Both the position numbers and the translations under genes were made by a program. Of a stretch of DNA of 64,000 nt, positions 18,465-39,764 are shown in pieces. The DNA is from Bifidobacterium thermophilum (lineage in GTDB: Bacteria; Actinomycetota; Actinomycetes; Actinomycetales; Bifidobacteriaceae), in NCBI GenBank assembly GCA_000741495.1, contig JGZV01000002.1, positions 186,001-250,000 on the forward strand, read 5' to 3'. The notes beneath the pieces are model-generated. The model made no database searches. It saw only the letters and a program-made list of their open reading frames with translations, and was not told where the DNA came from. Positions within the stretch are counted from its first letter, which is position 1, and every line of letters starts with the position of its first letter.

Positions 18465-19643
18465 ATGACGACTACAGTTACCGCAAGAGATTATAACATT
18501 TCATCAATTTCCGATTCAATACATATACCACAAACAGAAATAAATCAAATACAAAGAGACTTCAATGCGTTTATCAAACAATCACCAATTGTAAATCATA
18601 AAAATTGTATGATTTGTAATACTGCATTCGGTACAAAGGGCAGTTCCTCGTCAGTCTGTCTTTCACATTCAATACCGCAACACAGTTTAAAAACCATCTC
18701 TGCAAACGGGGAATTATATAACACCAATAAAATAGTTCATTTTAGCATTAGGAAAGAAGAGCAAGGAACAAAAATCTCAGGGACATTCCGGCTAATTTGC
18801 AGAGACTGCGATTCGCGAGTCTTTAGAGAATATGAACAGTTCGATAATTACACAAGTGATTTCACTGACAATTGCTATTCCACATGTGTTCAACAGATAC
18901 TTAATGAGATTACGCTGAAAAATTATCTCTCAGCCATCTATAACAATGAATCATCAAGCGCACCAATTAGATTTCTCTTACAAAATACCAACAGCTATAA
19001 TATTAATTATGATAGTGCCAGATATCTTAAATCATGGCTTTCCAGCAGCACCAATGATTTACATGACTTCAATAATCGCTTTCTGGAAGCAAAACGATCC
19101 TTAAACAAAATGATGATAGATAATTATAGCATAATATATTACAAATTGCTTGACAAGAAATTACCGATTGCAATGCAAGGCGTGTTTACACCAGAAAAAG
19201 CATTTGACGGTAAATATATCAACAATTACCATATCGAAAATGCATCAAAACAGGATGCCCATATTTGCATATTGCCCTCTAATGACTTTTCAATCGTACT
19301 ATTATTCACGAAGAAAAAGTACGGCAATGTCAAACATGCGTTTAAAACCATCCGCAATCTACCTGATGACGAAGCAATCAAGGCCATTATCGCACTCGGT
19401 CTGTTATATCTTGATAATGTATACTTATCGCCCGAGATACCGAAGAACATTACACAAGATTCGTATCTTCGTGAACTTACAGGGGAAACACTCACTACCT
19501 TATACTCGGTATCTTCCGACTCGCCAATCCCGGACAATATCAAAGATATTCCAGAAGCGAAAATCCTCAATTCGGCCAAAGCAAATCGCAATCTGATTTC
19601 TCGCTATACAGAAATTCCCGATCAGTTGATTGAATCAATATAG
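18465..19643 (+). CDS. AT-rich accessory protein with HNH/zinc-ribbon-like motif
   Basis: A 392-aa protein, not matched to a named family. Near residue 48 it has CMICNTAF, then CLSHSIPQHSLK (about 64-75), then LICRDCDSRVFREYEQ (about 107-122). Two CxxC pairs bracketing an SH-x-IP motif suggest a treble-clef/HNH-type zinc site. The remaining 270 residues are mostly polar helices without a known motif. Codon use is extremely AT-rich compared with the GC-rich neighbours, a sign of recent transfer. It sits between the NERD gene and the helicase/methylase operon, on the opposite strand to that operon. An anti-phage effector role is inference only. Confidence 0.6.
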   Translation: MTTTVTARDYNISSISDSIHIPQTEINQIQRDFNAFIKQSPIVNHKNCMICNTAFGTKGSSSSVCLSHSIPQHSLKTISANGELYNTNKIVHFSIRKEEQGTKISGTFRLICRDCDSRVFREYEQFDNYTSDFTDNCYSTCVQQILNEITLKNYLSAIYNNESSSAPIRFLLQNTNSYNINYDSARYLKSWLSSSTNDLHDFNNRFLEAKRSLNKMMIDNYSIIYYKLLDKKLPIAMQGVFTPEKAFDGKYINNYHIENASKQDAHICILPSNDFSIVLLFTKKKYGNVKHAFKTIRNLPDDEAIKAIIALGLLYLDNVYLSPEIPKNITQDSYLRELTGETLTTLYSVSSDSPIPDNIKDIPEAKILNSAKANRNLISRYTEIPDQLIESI

Positions 19644-19958: not shown

Positions 19959-22439
19959 TCAATCCTGCTTCGGCTTACCCACCCCCACAATCAGCACTTC
20001 CTTCCTCGCACGTGTCATAGCAACATACAAGAGACTCCGCTCCTGCTTGTACAACTCTTGCAAAGCGACTTCGTCGTTACTGACCTCTGCGCGTAATGGG
20101 CTTGGGGGCAGCACATTGTCGTTTACGTCCACAATGACAACGCAATCGAATTCAAGACCCTTAACCCTATGCATAGTAGCGAGACGAATTCCCCGCATCT
20201 GACGATTATCTTCGTCAGGTCCTAGCTGGTATGCACCGTACGGCAATTGATTATCGATGATGTCACACCATTGTTTTACCAAGAAATGGTTCCTTGCTAC
20301 TACGCATACGTTTCTCGGATCAATGTGACGCATACCATCATTTAGGGCCGATTCCCAAGCATCGTCATCCGGATGGTCACTTTCCAAACCACATCGATCA
20401 ACAATCCATTTCCTGACCGCTTCAATTTCTTCAGCTTGGGAAGCGAAAAGACGCGCTTCCGGGACAGGCCCCATCATCAGGGACCTGCTATCCCCCACCG
20501 GTGCTTCCTCCCCATTCAAGTCATCAAACACGGTCACACGTGAATTCGGGGAGACAGTATCGTCCACAGCCTCGAACACAGAGTCGGCGACGTCCGGCCC
20601 TGACGTGAGGAAAATCCGATCCGCCGCTCCGCGTATCTGTTCTGTAGTTCGGTAATTCACCCGAAGTTTCCGTGCGCGTCCCTGGATTCTGATTCCGCAT
20701 TTGGACAGTACCGCCTTGCGACCGTAGATACGCTGCTGAGCATCTCCCACGATGAAGATGTCATTGTCGCCCTCATCAACCAAAGCACGAATCACTCTAT
20801 ACGCCGGGGTGGAAAAATCCTGCCCTTCGTCGACGATAACATGCGCGTATTTCTTTGGTCCATTCTGCTCGCGCAGCAATGTCTCCGCATAACTCATTGC
20901 CATATCCACGTCGTATGCTTGTTGCGACTGCATCACATGCTGATAAGCTTCTGCGACCCGCCATACTTCGAGCTTTTGCACACGGCTAAGTTTCATCCCC
21001 CGGCCTTTGCGCAACACACGCAAATATTCTGGCACGGATTGAACATGCGCGGGGACGATAACCTGACTCCACTCACTCTTCAGGAATGGAACAGTAAGTT
21101 TCGCATCATGAATTCCGCTTATGCTGATTGCTTTGCTCCACGCGTTGTTCAGGTCATCCCCGTGATCGGCGCTACCGTCAAACCAGATGTTGCCCGAATA
21201 CCCGTGTTCCTTAAGTTGTGTACTGACGAACCGATCGAGGTTGATGACATCAATCTTATTGAATTCTTCAACGCTGCATAGTTGCTTCAGGTTCGACGAA
21301 ATATCAGTGGCAAGATTTCGGGAATACGTGGTGAACAGCACCTTCTGCCTGCTACCTTGCTTAAGCAACGACGCTGCCAGACGACGCGCCCGGTGCATGG
21401 CGACAACGGTTTTTCCCGTACCGGCGCCGCCGAGTAGACGGAAAGGTCCATGATAATCGTGATCAACAAAGTATCGCTGATAGGGGTGCAAGAAAATGCG
21501 CCACTGTTCCAGCGGGGCATCAAGCACGCGCCTGAGGTCCTCCTGTCCTTTGATGACAACAAAGGACTGCTGGGTTGAATAGCTCGTCAATGCCTTGCGG
21601 AAATCGCCTTCCGCACCAGTATCTGGAACCGACACGGAGTGTGATGCTGCTGTCATACTTGACGATGCTTCATTGGCTGTACGAGCCATAGCTAGTACGT
21701 CCGTTTTCGAGCATCCTTCAGCGACAAGTTCAAGATACGTTCTCGCGTCATCCGGTAGACGTCTGCCCCATTCTTTGAATTGTTCCCAACTCGTTCTTGA
21801 CGACATGATATTCACGTATGGATCAGGGACACCTAACTCACGCATCTCCTGAATGGTGAGTTGACGGTACGAATCCGGCAATGGACCAACATGCATCTGC
21901 GCAGGCACGGAAGTGCGTGCTGTATTAGACGGAGTCTTCGAGAACGCACCAGGGCTTCCGCTATTTTCACCTGCACCAGTGGCTCCGCCAACGCTATCCG
22001 CTGGTGAAGGTACCTTGGGTACAGGAGGAATCAAAGTATTCTCTGTCACACCATTATGTTGCTGGTTGAGTGCGGCATCCTGCTCTTCAGCGGTGACCAC
22101 GTCATAAAGCTGAATGGTATTTGTCAGCGTATTGACTTCCAGCCGTTTCTTAGCCGCCCATGCATAGGCGTCATCGTGGTTCCCGATGTAGAGCACGGTA
22201 TAAACGCCGCTTTCTTTCTGATACCCAATAACGCCACGGTATTTCTGGTCGATACGAACCGAATAGAGTTTGTCGTCGACCGTGTTGTTAATCTTTTCCA
22301 GATGGATTCCAGGCGCTTTCGGATTTTCCTGGAATTTCTCTAGAAAATTCTCGAACTGCTTACGTACATTCTTCGGTAATGCCGCATAAGCTCTGAGCAC
22401 TGAATTGTGCATTACGATGATTGGCTGCTGTTGTACCAT
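19959..22439 (-). CDS. RelE/ParE-fold domain fused to UvrD-family helicase
   Basis: An 826-aa protein. Residues 1-105 resemble a RelE/ParE toxin-fold domain (AALPKNVRKQFENFLEKF, YSVRIDQKYRGVIGY, VLYIGNHDDAYAWA). A low-complexity linker of about 60 residues follows. The C-terminal superfamily 1 helicase has Walker A GGAGTGKT (337-344), Walker B VIVDEGQDFS (535-544), motif IV-like VNYRTTEQIR (594-603), motif V MHRVKGLEFDCVVIVDV and motif VI YVAMTRARKE. It starts five bases after the stop of the large helicase gene with AAGGAG upstream, so it is the last gene of the defence operon. Some stand-alone UvrD-like proteins carry this N-terminal fold; whether the RelE part cuts RNA is unknown. Confidence 0.82.
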   Translation of the reverse strand: MVQQQPIIVMHNSVLRAYAALPKNVRKQFENFLEKFQENPKAPGIHLEKINNTVDDKLYSVRIDQKYRGVIGYQKESGVYTVLYIGNHDDAYAWAAKKRLEVNTLTNTIQLYDVVTAEEQDAALNQQHNGVTENTLIPPVPKVPSPADSVGGATGAGENSGSPGAFSKTPSNTARTSVPAQMHVGPLPDSYRQLTIQEMRELGVPDPYVNIMSSRTSWEQFKEWGRRLPDDARTYLELVAEGCSKTDVLAMARTANEASSSMTAASHSVSVPDTGAEGDFRKALTSYSTQQSFVVIKGQEDLRRVLDAPLEQWRIFLHPYQRYFVDHDYHGPFRLLGGAGTGKTVVAMHRARRLAASLLKQGSRQKVLFTTYSRNLATDISSNLKQLCSVEEFNKIDVINLDRFVSTQLKEHGYSGNIWFDGSADHGDDLNNAWSKAISISGIHDAKLTVPFLKSEWSQVIVPAHVQSVPEYLRVLRKGRGMKLSRVQKLEVWRVAEAYQHVMQSQQAYDVDMAMSYAETLLREQNGPKKYAHVIVDEGQDFSTPAYRVIRALVDEGDNDIFIVGDAQQRIYGRKAVLSKCGIRIQGRARKLRVNYRTTEQIRGAADRIFLTSGPDVADSVFEAVDDTVSPNSRVTVFDDLNGEEAPVGDSRSLMMGPVPEARLFASQAEEIEAVRKWIVDRCGLESDHPDDDAWESALNDGMRHIDPRNVCVVARNHFLVKQWCDIIDNQLPYGAYQLGPDEDNRQMRGIRLATMHRVKGLEFDCVVIVDVNDNVLPPSPLRAEVSNDEVALQELYKQERSLLYVAMTRARKEVLIVGVGKPKQD

Positions 22440-22444
22440 TGAAA

Positions 22445-25400
22445 TCAGGACTCCTTCCCATCAGCTCCATCATTGAAGCACTCGGTAATATCATTATCTG
22501 CAGTAGCGTCGGTGATGACGGTCCACCCGCGATTGGTGAATGCCTGAGCGTTCGCATCATCCGCAGCAATATCAATGATGGGGAAGAACACAACTTTAAT
22601 ATCAACCCATGCAAGATCCGCCTGCCCAATGACTTTCCCGTGTTCATCCTGGAGCTCGTACCCCAGCTCTTTCGGTGCGGGTATGGACAGCTTCTCCGCC
22701 TTTTTGATGAACCGCTTGGTTTCATCCGACAGGTACAGGTATGTGGGGTCTGCCATGATGGCGGACCATCCAGTCCCATCCGAATCTTCCTGTACGGCTT
22801 CCGACTGATGGGACATCGCGTTCAAAGGAACGTAGGGATTCTCCCCCTCCATCGCGGTTTCAGCCATGAAGTGGAAATCCGGTGAGAACTGCAGAAGGTT
22901 TACGATGTGCCAATAACCGGACCATTGGGTTTTGTAATCGATTCGATCGTCATCGTCCAACGTATTCAAGGGGTTATACCCCGGTTGGTCGTTGGTTTCG
23001 TCCCTCTGCACGTCATTGAAAAGCAGGCCCACGTGCGCAGTAACGGGTGGTGTATTGCCACCCATCTCCAATCCGACGTATGCATTCAAGCGTTTTCCAT
23101 GCGGATATTGATGCAGAGAGTTCGCCGTAAACTCAGCACGGGGCTCTCCTTGGATTGACTCGATACTATTCAATCTCTCGGCAGTCTCAGGATTATTCCG
23201 ATTGCCGTCTCGGGCATTTAACGCAAAGCTAATCGAGTTGGCTTGATCGGTGAATATTTTCTCGGCATCTTGTCGTGCCAGATAGCATCCGAGCATACCC
23301 ACAGTTCCAACGATACTTGGGTCGAAAACGTCAGAGTGCTTCTGCACTATTGACTTCCGATATGCTTGCGTGGATGGCATCTTGTTCATGTCGAGAAGTG
23401 GGTCAGCCAATTCTTTTTCGGTTTTCCCCTGGACGAAACCAATGACATCATCGTAAGTGAGCGACCATACACGGTACCCCGCACGTCGCAGCGCTTCCCG
23501 TTTGAGGGAATCCTCTTTTACTATCCCCGCGTGGTATTGGATTCCATCGACGAAAATAGCCACTGATTTTCTGTCATCGCTTTCATCTGTGTCAACAGTG
23601 CTGAGACTCAGCACAAAATCCGGCTTGCAAGGCTGCGCCACTCCGGATTGCGGGCCTAAGGTGACCTGTGGCTCAACATCCCATTGATACCCGTTCACAG
23701 TGAGCTTGTATCCCTGCTTTCCATGAACAAATGCCTGGATAAGATCGGCACGGTGTCCTTTCGCTGTGGCGTTTTCCCCAAACGGATGAGCATACAAGCC
23801 ACGCAGTGCTTCAATGAAATGCTGTTCAAGAGTACTATCAAAGAGCGGATTTTCATCGATTTTCGAAATCGTGTCTATCCTACGGCACTTATTGTGAGGA
23901 TCAAGTATCTTGTCGATCATGCCGAGCGCCTTATGGCGTGATATCATTTCCAGAGCACGGCTCTGGCGATAAGCGTACAAACACCGGTAGCAGCCATCAG
24001 CATCAGTATCGGCGCAATCACATGTTAGCATGGCTTCTCTCGCGGCAGCGAGTACGTTCTGCAGCAGGTCGGGATCAGCCATTTGCTTGAGGTATCCGGT
24101 TCCTCCGGGTACGGTGTCATAGAATGCAAGATATGTCTTGCGTAGACCTGATCCGTCTGAGGTTGGTTCATTGCTCAACGTCACGGCGATATGATCGATG
24201 TTGCCGAACACCCGACGCATACCGAGCATTACCGCAGCGGTCAATGATTCCGCTGCACCACTCGAACCGGTACCGCCATCAATCTCAGGAACAAGCATAC
24301 GCAGGATTTCCGATTTGACCTCTCTATACAGGAACAAGCAGGTGTCTTTCTGCTCCGGATTCACCAGCGTCTCTGCATTCCGCTTGCGTTCCGGACAAGA
24401 ATATGCATGTCTGACATGGTTGCCTTCTATCACAGCGCCGCATCTTGCACACACAGTGAATCCCTTGCCATTTGCCGTGGTTCCAGCGATTTCCAACTGC
24501 GACCCATCTCCGGCAGCCTCTCCAAGGTTGATTTCCCGGATTGTTTCCTTTGAGGTGTAATCGAATCCGAAACTGGTCGCTCCAGTAATCTCCCAAGCAC
24601 TGTCAATGTGTTCGCGTGCGATATCGACCAAAGTGTTCTTCACAAAGTGGGCCTTGGGACGGTTATCAGATGTGTCATCCACCTGGCTCTCACTCTCTGT
24701 TTCCTCGGAGATCACTGTGTTGATGCGTACCATCGGCCGTTTTTGTCCGCTATCCGCCCATTGCATTGATCCGCAGGAAGGACAGCTGGCGAGATGCTCC
24801 GAGCTGGACACCGGTTCGGCATGTGAACAGTTCGGGCACAGACGCCACATGACGATGTCGCCACCAGTTCCGCCTTGTGTGCATAGAATCCGGCTAATCT
24901 TGTATTTTCTTCCAGCAGCAAAGAATGTGCTGCCCGGGGCAAGTTCGGTTATCGCGCTGGCTGCGGGACGCACGAAATCCTGTGTGACGGTCTTGCTGCG
25001 GCGTCGCTGGTTCTCGAGTAAGGTTTCTACGCCATTCTTCCCGTTGGTTTGTTCTTTGTCAGGTTTGAGAATCGTGTGGAGCGTTACCCCCGTTTCAGGG
25101 AAGGCATAGTTCGGCAACACACCTTGATCTGACAGATAATTGAAAGTACTGGTACTGCGAATACCGTTGATGATTTGTTGGAGATTGCGTATTTCTTCTT
25201 CGCATTCCAGCTGTTGCTGTGTGAACGAAGAATCCTGCGGCTTGTCTTTCAGCTCTTCAAGCAGACGGTCGGCTTCTCTTCGCTGCTGGGATAAGGCCGT
25301 AAGCGTGTCGTTTGTTCTTCCAAACACGTCAAAGATGCGCCGGCTCATGGTGCTGTCCTCTGAGGTTCCACGAGCAAAAGCTTCGAGCTGATTCCTCGTC

Positions 25401-28400
25401 TCACTGCTAAATCCGAATAACTCTTCGAAACCTGTCACCAACTCGCCAGTGTGCTTGCTGGTCCATTCGAGGAAATTCAACGGGAAATCGTTAGTCTGCT
25501 GTTCAGCAATATTGTTAAGGCACTGCTTCAATTTCAACGGCACGATATCTTGAGGTACCTTACCCGTCGCGAGCATCTCGTGCACCCACTTGCCTAACGC
25601 ATAGGCGATGAGCTGACGTTCCAGCACCGCTGTCGCCTTGAGGAAGATATGCGGTGGGTCGATGGAACCATCCAGCATGTCTTCTGGCCGCTGATAGAAA
25701 TAAACATCATGTTCCTTGGAGTTGGCGACCGCAAGAATGAGCGAATTGCCATCTCGTCGTCCGGCGCGTCCAGCTCTCTGAACATACTGAGCTTGCGAGG
25801 GCGGTATCGAAGAAAGAATGACTGTTGAAAGGTCCCCGATATCAATACCCATCTCGAGGGTAGGGGTGCATGCGAGCACGTTGACTGCCCCCGGCTGGGG
25901 ATGCTCCAGTTTGAACTGTTCTTCGAGCCGGTTCCTGGTGTCTCCGCTCAACAGTCCTGTATGTTCTGCGGCATGGATTCTTTCTGCAGGCTCGTTACGG
26001 TAGAGCTTGCCATAATAACCGAGCTCCAGTGCCGCAGCTTCATCGGTCCCTGCAGTCAAGATTCCCGAACAGGAGCGAGTTCTGCATCGCGCGCCACGCC
26101 ATGCAGGCAGGTTGCGTGTAGCGCACGAATAGCTTCTTCCACATGTATTGCATACCAGCTGGGTGACATTATCATCGACCATGCACCCTGTTTCGAGTAG
26201 CCCGTATACAGTCCGAGGAATCGGACCAGAGGACACTTGTATCGTGCCGACAATACCAGCGCGCACGCATTCTTCAAGCAAAATCCCGAGTAGTTCGCAG
26301 TGAATATCAGCGCTTTCGAAAGACTTCTCGCTCAGATATCTGTGGACAAGTTGACGATAAGGTCCGGAATCGAGGGTGTCGAATGCTTTCTTACGGACCG
26401 ACGGTTTGTCTGACAGGAAGTGCGGTACCTCATCCACATACACACCGGGCATCCACTTTTCATTCTTATTGGACAGGAAATATGTGTTTCCATCTTGTTG
26501 GAGGAACCGGTCGTATGTTACATCAAGGAACGCGCCTCTAGTACGCAGCAAGTTTAGAAATGCAGCAGTCAGGTGAAGCCAATCGTCATGGTCAATCGCC
26601 TCGCGCCTTAGACCGATTTCGTTGTGGCAGCGTTCCATCGTTACCACAGAAACTCGTTCCATCAACGGCTGATCAAACGCTAACGCTGCGCAACCTGATT
26701 TTTCCAGAGTTCGCCCGATGCGGCAGCGCATACCAAGCTCCAGCAAAGATTCCAACCGAATCCTACGCCCAATCCAGTCCAGCAGCAGTTTACGTTCTGG
26801 GCCAGCCGGGTTGTTCCGCAACACAGCATCATACTCGCGCATCCATGTCATATTTGGGGCGATGAATCGCACGATATATTCGGCTTCATTATCATACCGA
26901 CGGTGATAGTAATCGTTTTGATGGTTAAGAAAGTCAGCAAGACTTGACCCAGCCATACTGTTCTTTTCCAGATAGTCAACCGCAGAATTACGCAATGCGA
27001 AGCGCCAAGTCCGTGAGTTGAACACACTTGCGCGGTACGAGGCGTCCTGTACACTGTCGGAGAATACGATTGCCTTGTCGTCATCATTGAATGTATCTCC
27101 AGACAGCTCAGTGAGCATGACGCTGATCTGTGTGGTAGCCCGCACACCGACCATGGCGATGTCCTGTTCGCTGCCGCAGAACGGGCAACGATAATGTTTT
27201 CTTCCCTCAACAAGGCTCATTGTGCGCGCGATCATGGTGATACGCGGGGTACCACACGCCGAGCACTCACATTCTGACGGTTCGAATGACGCCACGGTTT
27301 CGGCTTTCATGCAGGAGTTGCAGAACCATACCGCCGCACAGCCATCGTTTTCCGGCGTAAATCCCATTTCGCACGGCTGCAACGTAATCAAGTCGTTCTT
27401 GGCCTTGTAGTCGAAAAACGTACTGTAAAAGGACTCCATATCACGAATGCCAATCCAGCCGTCTTTCCCGAGGAGACCAATCCAGGCAGTGCCGCCGCAA
27501 TCGCGGCAGTTGATGACCGGCATTCGGGTTCGAAGATCTTCCTTCGTCAGTTCGATAGCCGGGCGGTAATCGACTTCGCCATCCAGACCGGTGACGTTGG
27601 CCACTACCCTGCCTAATTCCTTGACCCATAGCTGGACTTGTACGTTGAGGAATGGACGTGGATTCTGCGCGTTTCCTGCCCGCACATAGGAAACCAACGC
27701 GACGAGTGCATCTACGCAGGCTTTTTGTTGTTCACGGTTCAGGCTATTGAAGCGAAGATGTCGAATGGCAAGCTCGTCGAGTAATGACCCATCGACTCGA
27801 CGTGGATGTTGTGATATCAGGTCGGTCAATGTGCACAGGAACCGGGAACGCTTGAGTTGACGCCCAAGTTCAATCCGTACAGCAGAATCTTCAATCGACT
27901 GTTGCTGCCGCCATTCTTCCAGCCAAGCTTGGGCTGCGCATGAAAGATATGCCTCGGGATCCGTATCGTGCTCAAGATTGATCAACTTTTCTGCCTCGAT
28001 GGCTGACGGAATGGTGTTGTCAGCATCTTCGTTATCGAAGAACTCGCTGGCGTGAAGTCGATCCTCGGTGATCACCGATTCAGGCGTGAATGTGGTATTG
28101 AAGATATCCTGTGCATATTTGCAGACTGATTCCACGGTTTCGTCTGTGCCCATGGTGGCGGACGTACCGATGCAGCATATTTCGTCGCTGCTGGTATGGA
28201 GCCTGTCTGTCAGCCTTCGCAACAGACATGCAAGATCAGTACCTTGTGCGCCATCGAAGGTGTGGAATTCGTCGACGACGAAATACTTGAGGGTTGTCTC
28301 GTCGTTATCGTCCCAGATTCGCGTGTCTTTTGGCCGTACCAGCAGATAGTCGAGCATCTTGTAATTGGTCAGCAGGATGTCTGGCGGGGTTTTCAGCAGC

Positions 28401-28969
28401 TCGTCATGGTCCGTGACGATATTGGTGGCGGTCATCACGTGGTTGCCTTTGTTTGCGCCGCCGAGGCTCTGTTCGCCGACGTACATGCCAGCGGTCACAT
28501 TGTTATTGAGTTCTGGACTGTCATGGATGAGCGCTGCGATACGTTTCGCCTGATCTATTGCCAAGGCGTTCATCGGGTAGACGAGAATCGCTTTGATGCC
28601 TTTTCTGCCGAGCCTGCGCTGCTGATAGCAGTAGTCGAGGATCGGATACAGGAAGCATTCGGTCTTGCCTGATCCGGTGCCGGTTGCCACGAGTGTGGAC
28701 TCTCCGGAAGTAATCCGTTGGAACGCCCGCATCTGGTGGGCGTACGGCGGGAACCCCGGATGCAAGCTTGTAAAGGGGAATTTCGCGTGTCTGCCCGCAG
28801 TGCGGAACGGCAGTTTAATCGACACAAATGGATTCTGGACGAGTGCGCCTGTCTGTTGGGCGAGCCGCTTGATTGAACCACGGAACGGCCTGTTCGTCAT
28901 GGGGAACGTGGTTTCCACATAATCCGCCAGACCAGAGGCGATATGCTGTGCGAGTACCACTGGAATCAT
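22445..28969 (-). CDS. Giant DEAD/DEAH helicase with DUF1998 and nuclease-like domain (DrmA/B- or DruE-like)
   Basis: 2174 aa from ATG 28969, which overlaps the methyltransferase stop (ATGA) and has GGAGG eight bases upstream; the longer reading from 29005 is rejected. Helicase motifs: ATGTGSGKTE (95-104), VVDEFHTFDGAQG (231-243), IGTSATMG, then TPTLEMGIDIGDLS and YVQRAGRAGRRDGN. Several Cys pairs (INCRDCGG, WFCNSCMK, YRCPFCGS) interrupt the helicase. A DUF1998 module follows near 1500-1690 with YDTVPGGTGYL and DGCYRCLYAYR. Near 1786-1830 KPDFVL, VAIFVDGIQYHA and LRRAGYRVWSLTYDD resemble a Vsr/DUF559-type PD-(D/E)XK fold. The last 320 residues are unassigned. Helicase plus DUF1998 is what DrmA and DrmB provide separately, and is also the build of Druantia DruE. 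Confidence 0.82.
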   Translation of the reverse strand: MIPVVLAQHIASGLADYVETTFPMTNRPFRGSIKRLAQQTGALVQNPFVSIKLPFRTAGRHAKFPFTSLHPGFPPYAHQMRAFQRITSGESTLVATGTGSGKTECFLYPILDYCYQQRRLGRKGIKAILVYPMNALAIDQAKRIAALIHDSPELNNNVTAGMYVGEQSLGGANKGNHVMTATNIVTDHDELLKTPPDILLTNYKMLDYLLVRPKDTRIWDDNDETTLKYFVVDEFHTFDGAQGTDLACLLRRLTDRLHTSSDEICCIGTSATMGTDETVESVCKYAQDIFNTTFTPESVITEDRLHASEFFDNEDADNTIPSAIEAEKLINLEHDTDPEAYLSCAAQAWLEEWRQQQSIEDSAVRIELGRQLKRSRFLCTLTDLISQHPRRVDGSLLDELAIRHLRFNSLNREQQKACVDALVALVSYVRAGNAQNPRPFLNVQVQLWVKELGRVVANVTGLDGEVDYRPAIELTKEDLRTRMPVINCRDCGGTAWIGLLGKDGWIGIRDMESFYSTFFDYKAKNDLITLQPCEMGFTPENDGCAAVWFCNSCMKAETVASFEPSECECSACGTPRITMIARTMSLVEGRKHYRCPFCGSEQDIAMVGVRATTQISVMLTELSGDTFNDDDKAIVFSDSVQDASYRASVFNSRTWRFALRNSAVDYLEKNSMAGSSLADFLNHQNDYYHRRYDNEAEYIVRFIAPNMTWMREYDAVLRNNPAGPERKLLLDWIGRRIRLESLLELGMRCRIGRTLEKSGCAALAFDQPLMERVSVVTMERCHNEIGLRREAIDHDDWLHLTAAFLNLLRTRGAFLDVTYDRFLQQDGNTYFLSNKNEKWMPGVYVDEVPHFLSDKPSVRKKAFDTLDSGPYRQLVHRYLSEKSFESADIHCELLGILLEECVRAGIVGTIQVSSGPIPRTVYGLLETGCMVDDNVTQLVCNTCGRSYSCATRNLPAWRGARCRTRSCSGILTAGTDEAAALELGYYGKLYRNEPAERIHAAEHTGLLSGDTRNRLEEQFKLEHPQPGAVNVLACTPTLEMGIDIGDLSTVILSSIPPSQAQYVQRAGRAGRRDGNSLILAVANSKEHDVYFYQRPEDMLDGSIDPPHIFLKATAVLERQLIAYALGKWVHEMLATGKVPQDIVPLKLKQCLNNIAEQQTNDFPLNFLEWTSKHTGELVTGFEELFGFSSETRNQLEAFARGTSEDSTMSRRIFDVFGRTNDTLTALSQQRREADRLLEELKDKPQDSSFTQQQLECEEEIRNLQQIINGIRSTSTFNYLSDQGVLPNYAFPETGVTLHTILKPDKEQTNGKNGVETLLENQRRRSKTVTQDFVRPAASAITELAPGSTFFAAGRKYKISRILCTQGGTGGDIVMWRLCPNCSHAEPVSSSEHLASCPSCGSMQWADSGQKRPMVRINTVISEETESESQVDDTSDNRPKAHFVKNTLVDIAREHIDSAWEITGATSFGFDYTSKETIREINLGEAAGDGSQLEIAGTTANGKGFTVCARCGAVIEGNHVRHAYSCPERKRNAETLVNPEQKDTCLFLYREVKSEILRMLVPEIDGGTGSSGAAESLTAAVMLGMRRVFGNIDHIAVTLSNEPTSDGSGLRKTYLAFYDTVPGGTGYLKQMADPDLLQNVLAAAREAMLTCDCADTDADGCYRCLYAYRQSRALEMISRHKALGMIDKILDPHNKCRRIDTISKIDENPLFDSTLEQHFIEALRGLYAHPFGENATAKGHRADLIQAFVHGKQGYKLTVNGYQWDVEPQVTLGPQSGVAQPCKPDFVLSLSTVDTDESDDRKSVAIFVDGIQYHAGIVKEDSLKREALRRAGYRVWSLTYDDVIGFVQGKTEKELADPLLDMNKMPSTQAYRKSIVQKHSDVFDPSIVGTVGMLGCYLARQDAEKIFTDQANSISFALNARDGNRNNPETAERLNSIESIQGEPRAEFTANSLHQYPHGKRLNAYVGLEMGGNTPPVTAHVGLLFNDVQRDETNDQPGYNPLNTLDDDDRIDYKTQWSGYWHIVNLLQFSPDFHFMAETAMEGENPYVPLNAMSHQSEAVQEDSDGTGWSAIMADPTYLYLSDETKRFIKKAEKLSIPAPKELGYELQDEHGKVIGQADLAWVDIKVVFFPIIDIAADDANAQAFTNRGWTVITDATADNDITECFNDGADGKES

Positions 28970-31900
28970 CGATTGCCTCCATATTTGTGTTCGAAAAACG
29001 CCCATGCTGTTTTGTAGTCTTCGATTCGATCACAGACGTCGAACGGTGCGACATAGTCGATAGAACGGTCACGTGGGCCGCCAGGCTGGGTATCGTCGCT
29101 GATTATGCGGGTGAACACCGTTCCCGCAGGAGCATTGCGCCAACCATTGAATTCAGCACGGCCGGCAGTCAGTCTGCCATAGCTCTTCTTCACTGAAAAG
29201 GCGATACGGCCGTTGGCGTCGTACCACGTATCTGCTTCATACTGGTTGAGCACCATAAAGGTAAGCTTGTAAATGCTGATGAGCTCGTCCAGCGAGATGC
29301 CAAGAGCCATTGAAGCCAGAACATCGAGTTCCACCAGGGCCTGCCGGCGTGCATAATCCGACCGCAATGGCGTATGCCAGTCCCAATCCTCTGCCAATGA
29401 AGTAAAGGCGTTCGCCGGCAAGCGGGAATCCTGCTTGGACCATTCCATGGCTCGGTAGGAGTCTTCCCAGCAGCTCTTCCACAGTTCTGCATATGGTCTG
29501 GTCAGACAGTTCAGCAACAAACCACGAAGCCGGATCTCAGTATTCAAACTGCTGTCCGGAACCGGCAACGTAGACAAGACAGAACGGTTGACATGAGATT
29601 TCCCTGCCGCTCTGACGAAAAAGTCATATGGTAACGATGCTTCGAGTCCACTCATCAGTGCAAGCAACGCGTAACGCTCTGGGTGCACACCATAACCTGT
29701 TATGGTGTTCACCCAGGCTGCGCCTGGGTGAACACAGGACGCTTGCAGCGTCCTTTCGCTTGTCACCCCAACATACTCGCGGTTGCATAGTCTGTAGACA
29801 GCATCGAATCGTGTGCCGTCATTCATTTTTTGGATACGTTTACTGTATTCGGCGTCGCTGCAAGCTTGTGAATATTTGGCCCGGGGAAGGTAGTTCTCTG
29901 GAATCTCGGTGAGATCAATCGCATCATAGTCGCTATTGCTCTTATACGTTCTTCGCGTGGTCTGCAATAGCGGGTTGCCAACACCGATGAACGGGCTGGA
30001 ATAAATCAATGTCTTTGTGGTATCCGGGAAATGGATGTCATCATCGATGGTCCCATCCTTACGGGAGTTGGTCTCATTCCACATGCTGGAGTACGTGATT
30101 TCATCATCATAATCGCGTAGCGTGTGCGGCGCTTCCGCCATTTTTTCCAAGGTGGAAAGCAACTCTGTGGCATGGATACCAATCATCGGCGTCTGTTCCC
30201 AGTCTTCGGCCTTACCCGAACCGACGAGTCTGGAGAACAGCTCAAGTTCCCGTTTGGTGATATGGATAATCCTGTCCTTATGACCTCTCGTGTCCCATTC
30301 CTTGCCGTTCTTGACTCCAGGGACTTCTCCGGAACCGTCCGACTTATAGCATGCGTCGACGGTTTTGGGGTCATACAACCCCCAGATGGAATCGAAACAC
30401 ACTTCCGACGCATCTCTCTTCGCCGATGGATTCCTGTAGACATTCAAACCGAAACTCGTCTCATGATGGACACCGGCAAACAGCTTCTTTTCATTGCTGA
30501 ATTGGAAATGATATCGCAGACGCCGATACATCTGTTCACGTAAAACACCCGCACGGGTGTCACCATAGATCTCATCAGGATGAACGAATGCGCTTACCCC
30601 GGTGTCCATACGCGTATAGTCCCATGCATTGGGTAAGAAGCAGCGGAACAAATTAGTGCGTCCTTTAAGCAGTTGGTAATTGCAAATGGCTCCAAAATAA
30701 GACAGTGAGCCTGCGATATTTGCATATTCGCCGATATACACAGCTCTTGTACGCTCATCCTGTAAAATTTCAAGTATCCGTTTGCTCAGTGAGGACGCAC
30801 TCAGCTTGTGTATTGCAAGATATGGATTTACATCCGAGACGACGTCGGCTTCTTTCCATTGAACGTTCACCCACGGTGGATTCCCAATCATCAAATCGAA
30901 CCCACCTTCGTTGAATACATCAGCGAATTCCAGCTCCCAGTGGAAGAAGTGCTGCTCTTCGGCAATCTGTTTGACCAAACGCAGACGTTTAGCAGTGTCG
31001 TTGTCACCGCTACACAGCTCCTGAAGATCCACCTCATGCTCAAACATGTAGTCACGCTCATCTTCGCTGTTCAAGCTGTCTTCAAACGTAGGCTGATTAT
31101 CTTCGCGAACCAGTTCGAATCCTTCCGGTATCTTTCCCGTCAGAATCAGCGCCATGTCAAGTAAATAATCACGCCTCGAGGGCAGAAGCTGAGCTGCATC
31201 AATCGGCCAAAACCACAGGGAACACCAATAATCCATCGCGAGTTTGAGCCGTGCATATTCGCTGGCATTCTTCGCATGGTCGGAGAAGTACTCCAAGCGA
31301 AGCATCTCGTCCTTTTCACGAATTGAAAGATGATTACGGCGATCGATGTCCTCGGTCATTCCCTCGAAGTCGCTCTGCCCGCGCTCCTGTTGCTCTATGA
31401 GTGTATCGGTATGCTTGCTGTCATGGAGGAACTGATCATATCCGTAGATGCTCAACCTGTCCTCATCACGTGTTTCATACTCGAGCTGTCTGCGGGCCTT
31501 GACTTGTCCTTTCCACAGTGCATCGATGCTCTCGGAGAGCTGCTTCATGGCACCGATCTCTGTCTTGGAATACGGCCGATCAGTGAAGTCTTTCTTCCAG
31601 TCAGCGATGACGCTGAGGTTCGTTGACTCGATTGTCTCGATGGTTTTGTCATTGTAAGCGCACATGCCCGGATCGCCGGTAAGAAAGTGGTATATTCTGC
31701 GGGTGGATAACGCCGACTTCTTGAAACCAATCCGCTTGGGACTGGTGGTATTCCATCTGAGATTCTTGGCCGTGCTCGCAAGCTCGGACTCAAGATATCC
31801 AGCACGCCGTGCTCCAACCAGCGAGTTTCCGCATACCAATTGAGTTCCGAACCATGGCACGAACGAACCTTCGCAGATGGTGTTGAGCCACAGCGATACC

Positions 31901-33837
31901 TCGCCAAGTTCCACTGCCACCGGGTTCAAGTCGATGCCATAAATGCAGCGGTCGGCGATGAACATCTTGACCTTTTGCAATTCAGCTTGTCGTCGCTCGG
32001 CTGGAATCGCCGCCTGTGTGCCTTTCTGTGCAACCAACTCATGTTCCCTACGCGACAGATACATACTCGCCAGTTGGTTGATTACCTCATTGAGGAATGT
32101 GGCGGAGCCCATCGCCGGTTCGCAGATTTTCAACGTAAGAATATCCGTTGCCTGACGGATGCGCGGTTCGAGCTCCTTGATCGCATATTTGACCAGGCAC
32201 TGCGCAAGACTATCAGGCGTGTAGTACGACGCAGAGGTCTCCCGCTCGCGTCCGGCAAGACGATAGATGAAGGTGCCCGGCTCATAGCTACGTAACTCGC
32301 CTTCATGAGGATCACCGGCCGGATAGCGTACGCGCTCATTCTCCGCATAGTCGGAAAGCTGCTGCTCGGTGACGAAATAACCGACGTTGAGAGGATCATA
32401 GTGGTCCTTTTCACGCTTCACCTCGTAGAGTTTCTCTTTGGCGATGAACCCACGGTACGACAGCAGCGCCTCGTAGACCGCGCCCATCTGGCTGATGCCG
32501 AGTGCAGCATATGAGATGCGTTGCCTTCTGCGCGCCCCCTTGGTGGCTCCGCTCACGCTCATCAAATCGATGACCTTGAGCATTTGGCTGTCACGCAACT
32601 TCGCGTTTTCAAGAAGTCCTGTACGTTCCGGGTCGAAGATATGGGCTTTCAATGGTGGAATCAGGAAGAGCGCATCACTGATTTCCTCGCTGTTGACCCT
32701 CTTGTAATCATTCTCCGTTGTCGGGTAGCCATTGAATACCAGACGGTCGAGTTGTCGCAAGGTATCCGCCAGATATGTGGTGTCACCTGCCTCATCCATA
32801 CGACCACGCATCTGTTCTGCGATATCCCGCAGGCTATCCAACGAATAACCTGTACGGTAAATCTCCGATCTCATAGGTGCATAGCCTAAAGAGGGCTTGG
32901 CTTCAATGAACAACAGGAACAACAGGCGATACATGTAACGCAACGCTTGCAGTGTGAGTTCGCCAGCATCGATCTCCTCGATGGATCTTTGCTTATTATG
33001 TACCCAGTCATTAATGACTTCGTTGCCGAGGATCTCCACGCATTCACGCAAAGCAGAACGTAAGCCATCCGATACTTCGACAGCATTTTTCGCAGATTGT
33101 TCATCGAACGCATCGAGCACGCTATCGCCATTGTCCGGACAAAGGCTGTCATGGTCAAGAAGCACAGCCATCGCGGAGTAGACATGATCTTGATGTCGGC
33201 TGAAAATCGTGTCAAGATCGAATATCACGCATCTTTTGTCGCTCCACTTGCGACGGTCGATCAGCACAATCTGGTGCAGCCCCATGACCAGCACCCAACG
33301 GGTAGGCTGATCAAAATCCGACAACAGCATACGAACGTATTCTTCACAGGAAGGTCCGTTACCGGTATCTTCCTCAGCAGGACTCTCCAGCACTCCTGTT
33401 GAGGTATCACGCGTATAGCTCGCAATGACTTGTACAATAGGCACACCCAATGTGTCATTGACTTGGTAGTGTACAGGGATATTCGTTCCTGCCGACGCAT
33501 CTACAAGGCCGGTTACCGGCGCTACGTTTGCCTTGGCAGCATACCCGAGTGAGTCCAGCATGCCGTCAATGAATTCCCGCACACTCTCCGTCCCAAACAG
33601 GTCAGTGTCATTGTTGTTGATAATCTGCACATACGATTGCCGCATCGCCTTCAATTTGAAAACAGGACGATCCTGCGCAGCAAGTTCACGCCATGCCTTC
33701 GACGTCTCAGCAACACCCTGTGGGAAATACTCCTTCATGTAGTAGGGCGTGTAGAAATCGTTTACGGATTCAATGCCCGGAAATGTCTCGTTCAGTTCCT
33801 TCACCATTGCTATTCCCAGTTCTCTCCGACGCCTCAT
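28966..33837 (-). CDS. N6-adenine DNA methyltransferase, DrmMI/Eco57I-like
   Basis: 1623 aa. SAM-binding motif I is EPAMGSATFLNEVINQLA (near residue 576), followed by YGIDLNPVAVELGEVSLWLN, and the catalytic motif IV is IGNPPWVN (near 985), the NPPW/Y form of gamma-class N6-adenine methyltransferases. Long N-terminal and C-terminal regions probably serve target recognition. No separate restriction domain is obvious. ATG 33837 overlaps the SNF2 gene stop (ATGA); a second Met at 33807 (MVKELNETF) is possible and no strong ribosome binding site decides. Sitting between a SNF2 helicase and a DUF1998 helicase, it occupies the position of DISARM DrmMI. It should methylate host DNA to mark self. Confidence 0.85.
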   Translation of the reverse strand: MRRRRELGIAMVKELNETFPGIESVNDFYTPYYMKEYFPQGVAETSKAWRELAAQDRPVFKLKAMRQSYVQIINNNDTDLFGTESVREFIDGMLDSLGYAAKANVAPVTGLVDASAGTNIPVHYQVNDTLGVPIVQVIASYTRDTSTGVLESPAEEDTGNGPSCEEYVRMLLSDFDQPTRWVLVMGLHQIVLIDRRKWSDKRCVIFDLDTIFSRHQDHVYSAMAVLLDHDSLCPDNGDSVLDAFDEQSAKNAVEVSDGLRSALRECVEILGNEVINDWVHNKQRSIEEIDAGELTLQALRYMYRLLFLLFIEAKPSLGYAPMRSEIYRTGYSLDSLRDIAEQMRGRMDEAGDTTYLADTLRQLDRLVFNGYPTTENDYKRVNSEEISDALFLIPPLKAHIFDPERTGLLENAKLRDSQMLKVIDLMSVSGATKGARRRQRISYAALGISQMGAVYEALLSYRGFIAKEKLYEVKREKDHYDPLNVGYFVTEQQLSDYAENERVRYPAGDPHEGELRSYEPGTFIYRLAGRERETSASYYTPDSLAQCLVKYAIKELEPRIRQATDILTLKICEPAMGSATFLNEVINQLASMYLSRREHELVAQKGTQAAIPAERRQAELQKVKMFIADRCIYGIDLNPVAVELGEVSLWLNTICEGSFVPWFGTQLVCGNSLVGARRAGYLESELASTAKNLRWNTTSPKRIGFKKSALSTRRIYHFLTGDPGMCAYNDKTIETIESTNLSVIADWKKDFTDRPYSKTEIGAMKQLSESIDALWKGQVKARRQLEYETRDEDRLSIYGYDQFLHDSKHTDTLIEQQERGQSDFEGMTEDIDRRNHLSIREKDEMLRLEYFSDHAKNASEYARLKLAMDYWCSLWFWPIDAAQLLPSRRDYLLDMALILTGKIPEGFELVREDNQPTFEDSLNSEDERDYMFEHEVDLQELCSGDNDTAKRLRLVKQIAEEQHFFHWELEFADVFNEGGFDLMIGNPPWVNVQWKEADVVSDVNPYLAIHKLSASSLSKRILEILQDERTRAVYIGEYANIAGSLSYFGAICNYQLLKGRTNLFRCFLPNAWDYTRMDTGVSAFVHPDEIYGDTRAGVLREQMYRRLRYHFQFSNEKKLFAGVHHETSFGLNVYRNPSAKRDASEVCFDSIWGLYDPKTVDACYKSDGSGEVPGVKNGKEWDTRGHKDRIIHITKRELELFSRLVGSGKAEDWEQTPMIGIHATELLSTLEKMAEAPHTLRDYDDEITYSSMWNETNSRKDGTIDDDIHFPDTTKTLIYSSPFIGVGNPLLQTTRRTYKSNSDYDAIDLTEIPENYLPRAKYSQACSDAEYSKRIQKMNDGTRFDAVYRLCNREYVGVTSERTLQASCVHPGAAWVNTITGYGVHPERYALLALMSGLEASLPYDFFVRAAGKSHVNRSVLSTLPVPDSSLNTEIRLRGLLLNCLTRPYAELWKSCWEDSYRAMEWSKQDSRLPANAFTSLAEDWDWHTPLRSDYARRQALVELDVLASMALGISLDELISIYKLTFMVLNQYEADTWYDANGRIAFSVKKSYGRLTAGRAEFNGWRNAPAGTVFTRIISDDTQPGGPRDRSIDYVAPFDVCDRIEDYKTAWAFFEHKYGGNR

Positions 33838-36800
33838 TCACTTGCGACAAACGCCGCAGCGACACGAATGATAGGCTGTTGTTCAGATGCGTCAAGCGAC
33901 ATCTCGACCCAGTTAGCGTACTCATTGCAGATACGCATGGTATCCGCTTCTGCTGCAGAAGTATCGCTACGATTCCTTGATGCAACGACACGGTTGCGTT
34001 CTACAGACCACTGCTGTATTCGAACGAGTTGAGATTCTATGTTGCGATCTGCCCGCTCCTGATACTTATTTTGGTACTGTTCGAGTATTTTTCTACCCTG
34101 ATGGACCGCGCCGGCAAGTAATTCCTCAGCCAATTCTGTCTGGCTTTTGCTCGGCGAGTTCTCTTCGCGGTTGATGTAACGCCGTTCGATGGTCCCTGGG
34201 ATCACGCTGCCGCGATAACCGGTGATACGCCAGACCTCATCGAGGGAAAGACTCTCCTGATATTCGGTACCGAGATATCGCAGTCCAAACCACTGATCGA
34301 TGACAGGTGACGCATGCTTGTTAGCAAGCATGCCGTTCATCAATATGATGGTTTCACCATCTTGCATCTTCCCATTACCGACACCGATGATCGGGGCCTC
34401 ATCGCGCTTGTACAGCAAGGATGTAGACTTCAAACCCACCCATTCAGTGATGGGGTTCAGAGCCCACAGGTATTGCGTTGTGCTCCATTGCTCGTCATTC
34501 AATGTTGCAACCAAGCTATTCGCGCGATTTTCACAGTATTCACGGTCAGCGCTCCACTCGGCGGTATCATGACTGAGAATGCGGGCATCCGGGACGCGTC
34601 TGCGCAGCCATGCACGCAACGGGCTGTCTTTCTTGAATTTCACAGTTAGGCGTTGTTCGGAAGCGCTTTCATTCATGCGCTCTATTCCTGCTGACTGCTT
34701 GAATTCAGGGCACTGTAACCCTTGTTCGACAAAGGAATAGTCGGACATCAACGTTTTGGATTCGCTTATTCCGTCACCGGTAGCCATCTTTCGGAATATG
34801 CTATCCGGATCCGAATTGTCTTCACTATCAGCGCTGTTGCTATTGGATTCTTGCGAGTTCCCCGATTGTTCGAGGTTGAAGAATTTCATCGGATCGAACG
34901 CGTCTACATCTTCTTCCACTGTCTTCCGGGAGTCATCACTTGCAGGCTGCTCAGTCGAATCGATATCTGTCGGTCGAATGCTCAGTCGTTGTGAGAAGTG
35001 TTCCGCTGATTCGCCCGACTCGATGGCTTCGCGAGTGACCGCTTCCTCTGCCTCGATGTCAAACTTGCCCATCAGCAGTGCCGGGTCTCCGATATCTTTT
35101 CGGGCCTGATCCTCTTTCTCTTGAAGAATCTCAAGAATCCTGGCGTCGCCTTTTATCTTCTCATTGCGTGAATCGATGGTCATGAATCTGATGTCCGGCT
35201 GCTTACGCTGACCATAGCGGTCAATGCGCCCATTGCGCTGCTGGAACACCATCAGGGACCACGGCGTATCGAAATGAATCAGACGATGGCTCAAATAATG
35301 CAGGTTCAAACCTTCAGAAGCGACATCTGAAGCGACAAGAATTCTGATTGGAGATGTCCGAGTGCCAAATTGCTCAACGACTTGCTGCTGTTCCAAATCG
35401 GACATGCTACCATCCATCGATGCGATAGCGTCGGTGGAGAGACCCAGATCCTTGCGCAAGTGCTGTACCAGATAATGTTCGGTCTCGATTCTCTCCGTGA
35501 AAATCACAACACGGTCATCCGGCGCATCGCAATCCCAAGCGTAAGAATCGCTACGCAACAATTGCAGCAACCTCTGGTATCTGGAAAAATCAGTTGGGCT
35601 TATCTTCTCGAGCGCCGTTTTGAGCCCTTCCAACGCTCCGGTGTCTGCTTGACGAACGTTTTCATCACCTTTCGAGAGTTTCACAAGCCGCTCGTCAATC
35701 GTTTTGATGCATGCCACAGGCGATGAGAAAAGACTCTTCTCAAGCAGAGTCTTGAACAACCCAGCATTCGTTCCGCGACGGTGAACATCCATCACCAAAT
35801 GCATGCTCGTCAGACAGTCAAATGCGACCTCCTCGGCAGCGGTAGCGATGCATTTCTCCTGAGTAACCTTACGATCGGGGAAATTTCCCGACACGTCCGA
35901 AAAAACATCCTGTTTGAAACGTCTCACATACAGATGCTCGATATCCGCTTTACTGTAGTTTTCCGGATCCGGCAGCGTAGTCGGGTCAAGCATATTCATC
36001 AACGAAGCGAAACTTTTCGCGCGACCATCGTGTGGGGTTGCCGATAGCATTATCAAGGTATCGGATCGCGTGGCTAGACGTTTGGCGAGTTTCGCCCGCT
36101 GTGCACGACGCCCATCAATCGCACGGTCAGCGACATTCTGTGCTTCATCAATCACGATGATATCCCAATAGGAGGCATCCAACGCAGCACCATACTGGAT
36201 GTCCCGTTTCAGAGTATCAATCGACACAATCACCTTGTCGTAATACGAGAACGGATTAGCGTTTGCCGGAATCTCCGAACGAATCTGCTGGATACGTGAT
36301 GAATCCAGACTGACAAGAGGGATGGTAAATCTGTTCCACATCTCCTTTTGGAATTGTGCCATCATGCTCTTTGCGGTAACGACCAGAATCCGTCGTCCCT
36401 TACGCCGCGCAATGAGCTCTGACATCAAAATACCTGCTTCGAGCGTCTTGCCCAGGCCGACTGCATCGGCTATCAGAATACGTTGACGGGGCTGGGCAAG
36501 TGCTTTCAAAGCAGGAACCAACTGATAAGGCAACGAGTCCATGGCGGCCTTGTCTCCTACATGAATCTTGTCATCTGTGGGCGCGCTCGAACGTAACAGG
36601 CTCTCAATGAATAAATGGGAACGTGAAGCATTCGGCGATGTATCCGGCACGAACATTGTGTTGACCGGATCAACAGGTGTTATGGTATCCAAATCATCCA
36701 GAAACACCGCCGGCATATCACGTACCAGCGGTGAGATGCCCGTGCACGACACAGCTTGGTGACCAAGCATGTTTCTAACAACTTTGGTGACAATCCATTC

Positions 36801-36869
36801 TTGGTCACGGATCAGTACCCTCATGCCGGGAGAAAGCGCATTCCGTTGTTCCTGCACATCGTCTCTCAT
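33834..36869 (-). CDS. SNF2-family helicase, DrmD-like
   Basis: A 1011-aa superfamily 2 protein. Motif I is ADAVGLGKTLEAGILMSEL (near 140), motif II IIVIDEAQN (near 241), motif III MLSATPHDGR, then the C-terminal helicase half with VVIFTERIETEHYLVQHL, ASDVASEGLNLHYLSHRL and QQRNGRIDRYGQRKQ (near 548). An acidic Ser/Asp-rich linker and a C-terminal region of about 280 residues follow. This is the layout of DISARM DrmD. ATG 36869 (MRDDVQEQRNALSPG) is chosen because upstream codons overlap the preceding gene and look non-native; ATG 36893 is an alternative. First gene of a four-gene cluster with ATGA overlaps. It would translocate on DNA to couple recognition with exclusion of phage DNA. Confidence 0.83.
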   Translation of the reverse strand: MRDDVQEQRNALSPGMRVLIRDQEWIVTKVVRNMLGHQAVSCTGISPLVRDMPAVFLDDLDTITPVDPVNTMFVPDTSPNASRSHLFIESLLRSSAPTDDKIHVGDKAAMDSLPYQLVPALKALAQPRQRILIADAVGLGKTLEAGILMSELIARRKGRRILVVTAKSMMAQFQKEMWNRFTIPLVSLDSSRIQQIRSEIPANANPFSYYDKVIVSIDTLKRDIQYGAALDASYWDIIVIDEAQNVADRAIDGRRAQRAKLAKRLATRSDTLIMLSATPHDGRAKSFASLMNMLDPTTLPDPENYSKADIEHLYVRRFKQDVFSDVSGNFPDRKVTQEKCIATAAEEVAFDCLTSMHLVMDVHRRGTNAGLFKTLLEKSLFSSPVACIKTIDERLVKLSKGDENVRQADTGALEGLKTALEKISPTDFSRYQRLLQLLRSDSYAWDCDAPDDRVVIFTERIETEHYLVQHLRKDLGLSTDAIASMDGSMSDLEQQQVVEQFGTRTSPIRILVASDVASEGLNLHYLSHRLIHFDTPWSLMVFQQRNGRIDRYGQRKQPDIRFMTIDSRNEKIKGDARILEILQEKEDQARKDIGDPALLMGKFDIEAEEAVTREAIESGESAEHFSQRLSIRPTDIDSTEQPASDDSRKTVEEDVDAFDPMKFFNLEQSGNSQESNSNSADSEDNSDPDSIFRKMATGDGISESKTLMSDYSFVEQGLQCPEFKQSAGIERMNESASEQRLTVKFKKDSPLRAWLRRRVPDARILSHDTAEWSADREYCENRANSLVATLNDEQWSTTQYLWALNPITEWVGLKSTSLLYKRDEAPIIGVGNGKMQDGETIILMNGMLANKHASPVIDQWFGLRYLGTEYQESLSLDEVWRITGYRGSVIPGTIERRYINREENSPSKSQTELAEELLAGAVHQGRKILEQYQNKYQERADRNIESQLVRIQQWSVERNRVVASRNRSDTSAAEADTMRICNEYANWVEMSLDASEQQPIIRVAAAFVASE

Positions 36870-39592: not shown

Positions 39593-39619
39593 ATGGCCTC
39601 CACTCCAATGCCCCGGGTA

Positions 39620-39653
39620 CCGTGCGCCACACAGCGAGGTGGGTGGCGCACGG
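39620..39653. repeat. Perfect 11-bp inverted repeat
   Basis: CCGTGCGCCAC (39620-39630) and GTGGCGCACGG (39643-39653) with a 12-nt loop, 28 bp upstream of the DUF262 start. No U tract follows on either strand. It could be an operator controlling the DUF262/helicase genes or the end of the AlbA_2 transcript. Confidence 0.55.
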
Positions 39654-39764
39654 GACAATACCGATAGTGGTTAGTGTATTCGTGGTGGTGAACGTTAGAT
39701 ATTAACAATATGCCCCACGCCGACAAAAGAAGACATCCGATTCATCTATTACCGCGATAACACG

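Follow-up and report, generated by a model that had tools for sequence, protein, structure and literature searches.

ARMADA type II has been defined by four genes in the order armA-armB-armC-armD, an order called strict, together with an ArmD that bears a RelE-like N-terminus (Bell et al. 2025, bioRxiv, PMC12458937). Protection against phages has been demonstrated for E. coli systems of this type, in which defence requires all four arm genes and Walker mutants of ArmC are dead (PMC12458937). The same source describes a predicted active Vsr-type nuclease at the end of ArmC in types I and II, to which type II often adds inactivated EEP and Vsr domains (PMC12458937). A BrxA-like insertion after RecA1 and beta-barrel and MarR-like insertions are also counted among the features of type II. 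We analysed a 64,000-nucleotide stretch of Bifidobacterium thermophilum (contig JGZV01000002.1, positions 186,001 to 250,000; hereafter the window) and show here that the product of its minus-strand gene at 22445-28969 is the ArmC of an ARMADA type II system, not a DISARM helicase. Taken as a whole, the protein is best explained, with a probability of roughly 0.85, as an ARMADA II ArmC in which a helicase is joined to a predicted Vsr-type cutter and a dead Vsr copy. Because PMC12458937 already defines ARMADA type II and its ArmC nuclease, the window system is a further member of a described system, and a built-in active Vsr nuclease with dead tail domains is already known from the text of that source and is not new. 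In the open-licence literature, ARMADA together with Vsr, phage and helicase, and YprA together with ArmC and phage, were found only in PMC12458937, and no work on ARMADA as an antiphage system in Bifidobacterium was found there.

The operon lies in an island of lower GC content (~0.50-0.53 against ~0.62 in its surroundings) that holds five large minus-strand genes in series, a GmrSD-type gene first and then the four arm genes, which run from 36869 to 19959. By best match, the first arm product is a DrmD/BrxH-like helicase, the second a type IIG/DrmMI-like methyltransferase, the third a DruE-like helicase with DUF1998, and the fourth a GajB-like UvrD helicase. The first, armA (33834-36869, minus strand), encodes an SNF2/RapA-like (BrxHII/DrmD-like) helicase that shares 52% of its residues with E. 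coli ArmA over 623 columns; its open reading frame (ORF) reaches 37199, and since homology to E. coli ArmA begins at about residue 123 of this longer frame, translation probably starts at the ATG at 36869. Next, armB (28966-33837, minus) encodes a PglX/type IIG-like N6-adenine methyltransferase of 1623 aa, with 36% identity over 1719 columns aligned to E. coli ArmB. The armC product (22445-28969, minus) is a YprA/DruE-like superfamily 2 helicase with a DUF1998 (MZB) domain and a C-terminal nuclease region. Its ORF of 22445-29005 amounts to 2186 aa. Position 28969 marks an in-frame ATG (residue 13), and as this is where the alignment to E. coli ArmC sets in, translation more likely starts here; residue numbers below follow the 2186-aa ORF and are to be lowered by 12 for the start at 28969. 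The last gene, armD (19959-22439, minus), encodes a GajB-like UvrD helicase that is 35% identical to E. coli ArmD over 647 columns and 32% over its N-terminal 114 aa. Rfam searches over 15000-45000 and tRNA scans of the window gave no matches.

This gene order is the one that defines ARMADA type II, and it recurs in 47 of the 48 loci (from L010 on) that have all four genes. The sole exception, on a cyanobacterial plasmid (L016, 10013-25660), reads armC-armD-armA-armB; on a Tsukamurella plasmid (L012, 11854-18236) armC is annotated as two genes in different frames. The defining partner is likewise present. GajB profiles match ArmD, whose N-terminal 114 aa are homologous to E. coli ArmD (E=9e-22), and Pfam finds in this N-terminus only a weak Gp49 (E=0.029), a family that we take to be RelE-like. 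The window ArmD thus shows the GajB-like helicase fused to an N-terminal RelE-like domain, and the window ArmC carries the predicted active C-terminal Vsr-type nuclease of type II. Compared with its E. coli counterpart, this ArmC has the same gene order around it, a collinear helicase with DUF1998, all seven invariant nuclease positions described below and a tail of the same length class; it differs in its host and in its low identity (33% over 1919 aligned columns, query residues 13-1854). E. coli ArmC (999 bits) is a far closer match than the YprA-like protein encoded upstream of E. coli armA (120 bits, partial sequence), to which the window ArmC is 22-33% identical over partial stretches. 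The same four genes occur in two genomes of the same genus, with ArmC ~53% and ~47% identical, and ArmC DNA resembling the E. coli plasmid locus is present in 518 of 5426 complete E. coli genomes.

The preliminary description had placed this gene in DISARM, with an in-built nuclease that could stand in for the missing DrmC. Like DISARM, the locus combines a YprA-family helicase and a DUF1998 module with DrmD-like and DrmMI-like proteins. A DISARM-like system could claim that ArmA and ArmB match DrmD and DrmMI profiles and that, as PMC12458937 describes, two further proteins are common to ARMADA and DISARM. It is hardly credible, however, for a protein that matches DruE at 372 bits and DrmA at 53 bits, and that is encoded by one gene rather than by drmA and drmB, with the gene for ArmD, the defining partner of ARMADA II, next in line. 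In DISARM, helicase and DUF1998 belong to two genes and the PLD nuclease is separate (PMC12458937), whereas a single ArmC polypeptide carries both, by matches to PF00270, PF00271, PF09369 and DruE profiles; the DUF1998 zinc-binding domain (residues 1604-1676; 23978-24196, minus) matches PF09369 with E=2.2e-9, above its cut-off. Among the best 25 matches listed for each of seven island proteins there is no PLD or DrmC family, save matches of the ArmA helicase region to the PLD_Helicase profile. DISARM identity was therefore rejected for this DruE-like single polypeptide, in which the two-gene arrangement with the PLD nuclease DrmC is not found. What remains of the earlier idea is that a predicted nuclease stands where DISARM has DrmC, in a setting that is ARMADA II. 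The helicase's best PADLOC matches are DruE, and no other Dru family appears among the best 25 matches listed. Druantia III DruE, like ArmC, is a YprA-family helicase with active and dead C-terminal nuclease domains (PMC13192584), but unlike ArmC it uses PLD-type nucleases.

The nuclease-like region follows DUF1998, as had been proposed. The quoted motifs are all in the 22445-29005 translation: KPDFVL at 1794, VAIFVDGIQYHA at 1815, LRRAGYRVWSLTYDD at 1839 and GYELQDEHGKVIGQADLAW at 2115. To place them in the family, relatives of ArmC were gathered from 30 plasmid records with a match over at least 80% of the protein from 88 more loci found by helicase-motif scans of genome and viral contigs, and from further genomes; one such scan supplied the best 80 of 586, chosen by helicase motifs and not by nuclease motifs. 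A 100-sequence alignment comprises the window and 99 loci whose ArmC frames passed length and score limits. It leaves out L001 (the window's own gene), L009 (the second piece of the L008 gene), the short or weak L060, L066, L105 and L106, and L002, which had no ArmC match; near copies such as L017/L018 were kept, so that counts are not independent. The 81-sequence alignments comprise the window and 80 of 84 usable motif-scan loci, four contig-cut loci being left out. Residues E1727, D1796, D1820, G1821, H1825, D1832 and D1853 are identical in 100 of 100 ArmC sequences, and R1836 in 99. Across 81 sequences, seven columns of the 155-residue domain are invariant, and the motif pattern is thus beyond chance.

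The predicted structure points the same way. Modelled alone with AlphaFold2, the first domain has a beta-sheet core and a mean predicted local distance difference test score (pLDDT) of 84. In Foldseek, the TnsA nuclease leads its matches (E=0.004, prob 0.99); VIA-align gives I-Bth0305I (Z 6.6, root-mean-square deviation (rmsd) 2.7, 82 residues), NGO0050 (Z 6.4, rmsd 2.3, 80 residues) and TnsA (Z 6.4, rmsd 5.3-5.7, 109 residues). Much of the top of the structure-match list consists of what we take to be nucleases of the PD-(D/E)XK superfamily. The preliminary description had proposed structure prediction and comparison with Vsr as a check, with an unrelated fold counting against it; the predicted fold is related to PD-(D/E)XK. 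Compared with a profile of 16 Vsr sequences (15 of 25 loci plus E. coli Vsr, picked by a pattern that limits the residue at the Thr63 site), the first domain scores a Prob of 94% and a single-pair E of 1.2e-7. The alignment registers D1796, G1821, H1825 and D1832 with Vsr D51, G65, H69 and D97; E1727, in the preceding helix, fits Vsr E25 by position only and lies outside the profile alignment. Equivalents of E25, D51, H69 and D97, which presumably have their roles in the Vsr active site, are thus present in ArmC, and E1727, D1796, D1820, H1825 and D1832 are the active-site candidates. A set of E, D, x, H and D is the signature that names the EDxHD homing endonucleases. I-Bth0305I is counted among these, with a restriction-enzyme-like metal mechanism (PMC3943268). 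From conservation, model, structure matches and the Vsr profile match, residues ~1723-1860 (23426-23839, minus) are predicted to form a PD-(D/E)XK/Vsr-like nuclease domain.

Of the two families suggested at the outset, Vsr and DUF559, only the first has stood, since DUF559 (PF04480) as the best family was rejected on a weak match in 1 of 81 members (E=0.075) and the lack of a Glu before DG in 100 sequences. With the Vsr/EDxHD endonucleases (E. coli Vsr, I-Bth0305I) ArmC shares the E25, D51, H69 and D97 equivalents and a VFVDG-like strand. Unlike Vsr, its domain has extra strands before the KPDF strand, lacks the Cys of the GCFWH string and gives no sign of T:G mismatch recognition. Vsr itself (1cw0/1vsr, presumably its structure codes) was not among the structure matches of the ArmC tail or first domain, which does not exclude Vsr. 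An hmmsearch of solved structures with tail and domain profiles returned designed or helical-repeat proteins and one radial spike protein, and no relatives.

Several observations weigh against a cutting domain of Vsr type. The Vsr family PF03852 has no match to ArmC at the Pfam cut-off, and PF18741 alone matches, weakly; the structural Z scores of 6.4-6.6 are moderate, staying under 8, and a common arrangement might in principle account for them. A cleavage assay of any ArmC was not found in the literature, and the text of PMC12458937 reports ArmC Walker mutants and no nuclease-residue mutants. One may then suppose that the first domain has retained its fold and its residues yet only binds DNA or recognises its structure, while the helicases and the methyltransferase protect and host nucleases cut. 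Such a division of labour would suit the stress laid in PMC12458937 on helicase and methyltransferase motifs, with no nuclease mutant reported in its text, as well as the Druantia I/II relatives with predicted inactivated Vsr domains (PMC12458937). We nevertheless consider it quite unlikely: the seven invariant positions hold nothing but E, D, G or H, five lie at or beside active-site places, and their identity in 100 of 100 diverse sequences argues for catalysis, while the dead second domain of the same proteins shows what loss of function looks like.

The activity of the first domain had also been called uncertain because one acidic position of the core is Val rather than Glu. A Glu at the strand position before DG belongs to DUF559-like enzymes. 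The residue in question, Val1819, aligns at Thr63 of E. coli Vsr, and Vsr proteins of the window's phylum have Val there in 20 of 24 cases and Ile in 4 of 24 (25 loci examined). That tally was redone without the residue limit, the site being located first in 12 and then in 24 of the 25 loci, and these 24 were used. The common Vsr string here, VAVFVDGCFWH, is close to the ArmC VAIFVDGIQYHA. Across 100 ArmC sequences the residue is Thr in 41, Leu in 32, Cys in 11, Met in 9, Ala in 5 and Val in 2, and never Glu. Val1819 is therefore no defect, as Glu is not expected at a Vsr-type position, and this doubt falls away.

The tail noted as unassigned is real and general: after residue 1690 it measures 434-552 aa in 95 of 99 homologues, and in the other four (L029, L052, L094, L098) the reading frame ends at or within ~60 bases of a contig end. 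In a model of 497 residues (mean pLDDT 81), residues 2085-2186 (22448-22753, minus) form a separate domain, which contains the further strand-rich segment pointed out before, GYELQDEHGKVIGQADLAW. This domain matches I-Bth0305I (Z 7.0, rmsd 3.0, 82 residues), NGO0050 (Z 6.7, rmsd 3.4, 85 residues) and the Vsr profile (Prob 89%, single-pair E=2.4e-6). An acidic residue at the D51 place is kept in most sequences (Glu in 69 and Asp in 18 of 100), and the DG, the His and the second Asp are lost. We thus assign residues 2085-2186, by model and profile, to a second, predicted Vsr-like domain whose catalytic residues are lost, in agreement with the inactivated Vsr of PMC12458937. Its conserved residues are G2115, E2117, E/D2130, W2133, G2160 and W2161. 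Direct profile comparison (single-pair E=0.003, Prob 10.5%) gives no more than a hint that it might be a duplicate of the first domain. Between the two, residues 1866-2080 (22766-23410, minus) are modelled, partly at low confidence (pLDDT 40-95), as helices, then three strands and a helix; they have no profile match to Vsr or neighbouring domains, and the EEP label is neither confirmed nor excluded. Foldseek with the whole 497-residue model gave no usable match, with nothing below E=0.001.

In Druantia III, the helicase DruE, whose C-terminus bears both active and dead nucleases, cleaves long DNA (PMC13192584). By analogy, the most likely course is that ArmC loads via its helicase and would cut with its Vsr-type domain. 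The YprA/DruE-type engine, with DUF1998 as a canopy, would load on phage DNA and move along it, and the fused domain, using E1727, D1796, H1825, D1832 and a bound metal, would cut or nick that DNA. It would thereby take over in cis the task ascribed in DISARM to DrmC, a separate PLD nuclease. The dead Vsr copy was probably retained to bind DNA, to pack against the active domain, or to serve assembly. As a refinement of this scheme, both Vsr-like domains could form an intramolecular pseudo-dimer in which a single strand is cut by the active partner while its dead counterpart acts as a clamp to position DNA leaving the helicase. The full-length tail, kept in 95 of 99 homologues and in the rest cut by contig ends, would fit such an arrangement, as would the like pairing of dead and active nuclease in Druantia III DruE (PMC13192584), but the conserved residues of the last domain can equally be structural, and we regard the refinement as tentative and on balance unlikely.

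Between armB and armC lies a slot for cargo. Gaps of more than 600 bases occur there in 32 of 66 loci (from L010 on), whereas 3 of 51 loci have one at the armA-armB junction and 3 of 86 at the armC-armD junction; in the window the slot is empty. The 32 loci with cargo include L019 (6557-9976), L020, L037, L049, L070-L077 and L099-L101. Among 14 slot proteins, several match MkoA, TmtA, LeoB or GmrSD-like defence families or are of Schlafen/AlbA_2 type, AlbA_2/HATPase proteins occur too, and some lack a clear match. The main text of PMC12458937, as available, makes no mention of accessory genes, GmrSD or insertions between ArmB and ArmC, and variable defence cargo at this site may be new. A more speculative and rather improbable proposal would join the two themes: intact and dead Vsr, with a lineage-specific spacer between them, would make a pseudo-dimeric nicking head that holds DNA leaving the helicase in such a way that just one strand is cut, and the armB-armC junction would be a docking slot that swaps defence genes to tune or back up the machine.

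Further genes flank the operon in the window. Directly upstream of armA, 37019-39658 (minus) encodes a GmrSD_N/GmrSD_C protein fused to DUF4268, and 39765-40937 (minus) an SLFN AlbA_2 protein; almost all of the latter matches PDC-S50, a candidate defence family (E=6.4e-112). These were rejected as parts of the operon because, in the stretch examined, two operons of the same genus lack them around armA. On the other side, in the part of lowest GC (0.38), 18465-19643 (plus) encodes a 392-aa protein with no Pfam, PADLOC or NCBIfam match; its CxxC and CxSHSIPxHxL patterns resemble, by eye, an HNH-like zinc motif.

With the label corrected from DISARM to ARMADA, the window ArmC becomes a divergent homologue for structural work, and with the doubt about activity settled, mutagenesis in ARMADA II should target D1796 and H1825 (window numbering).

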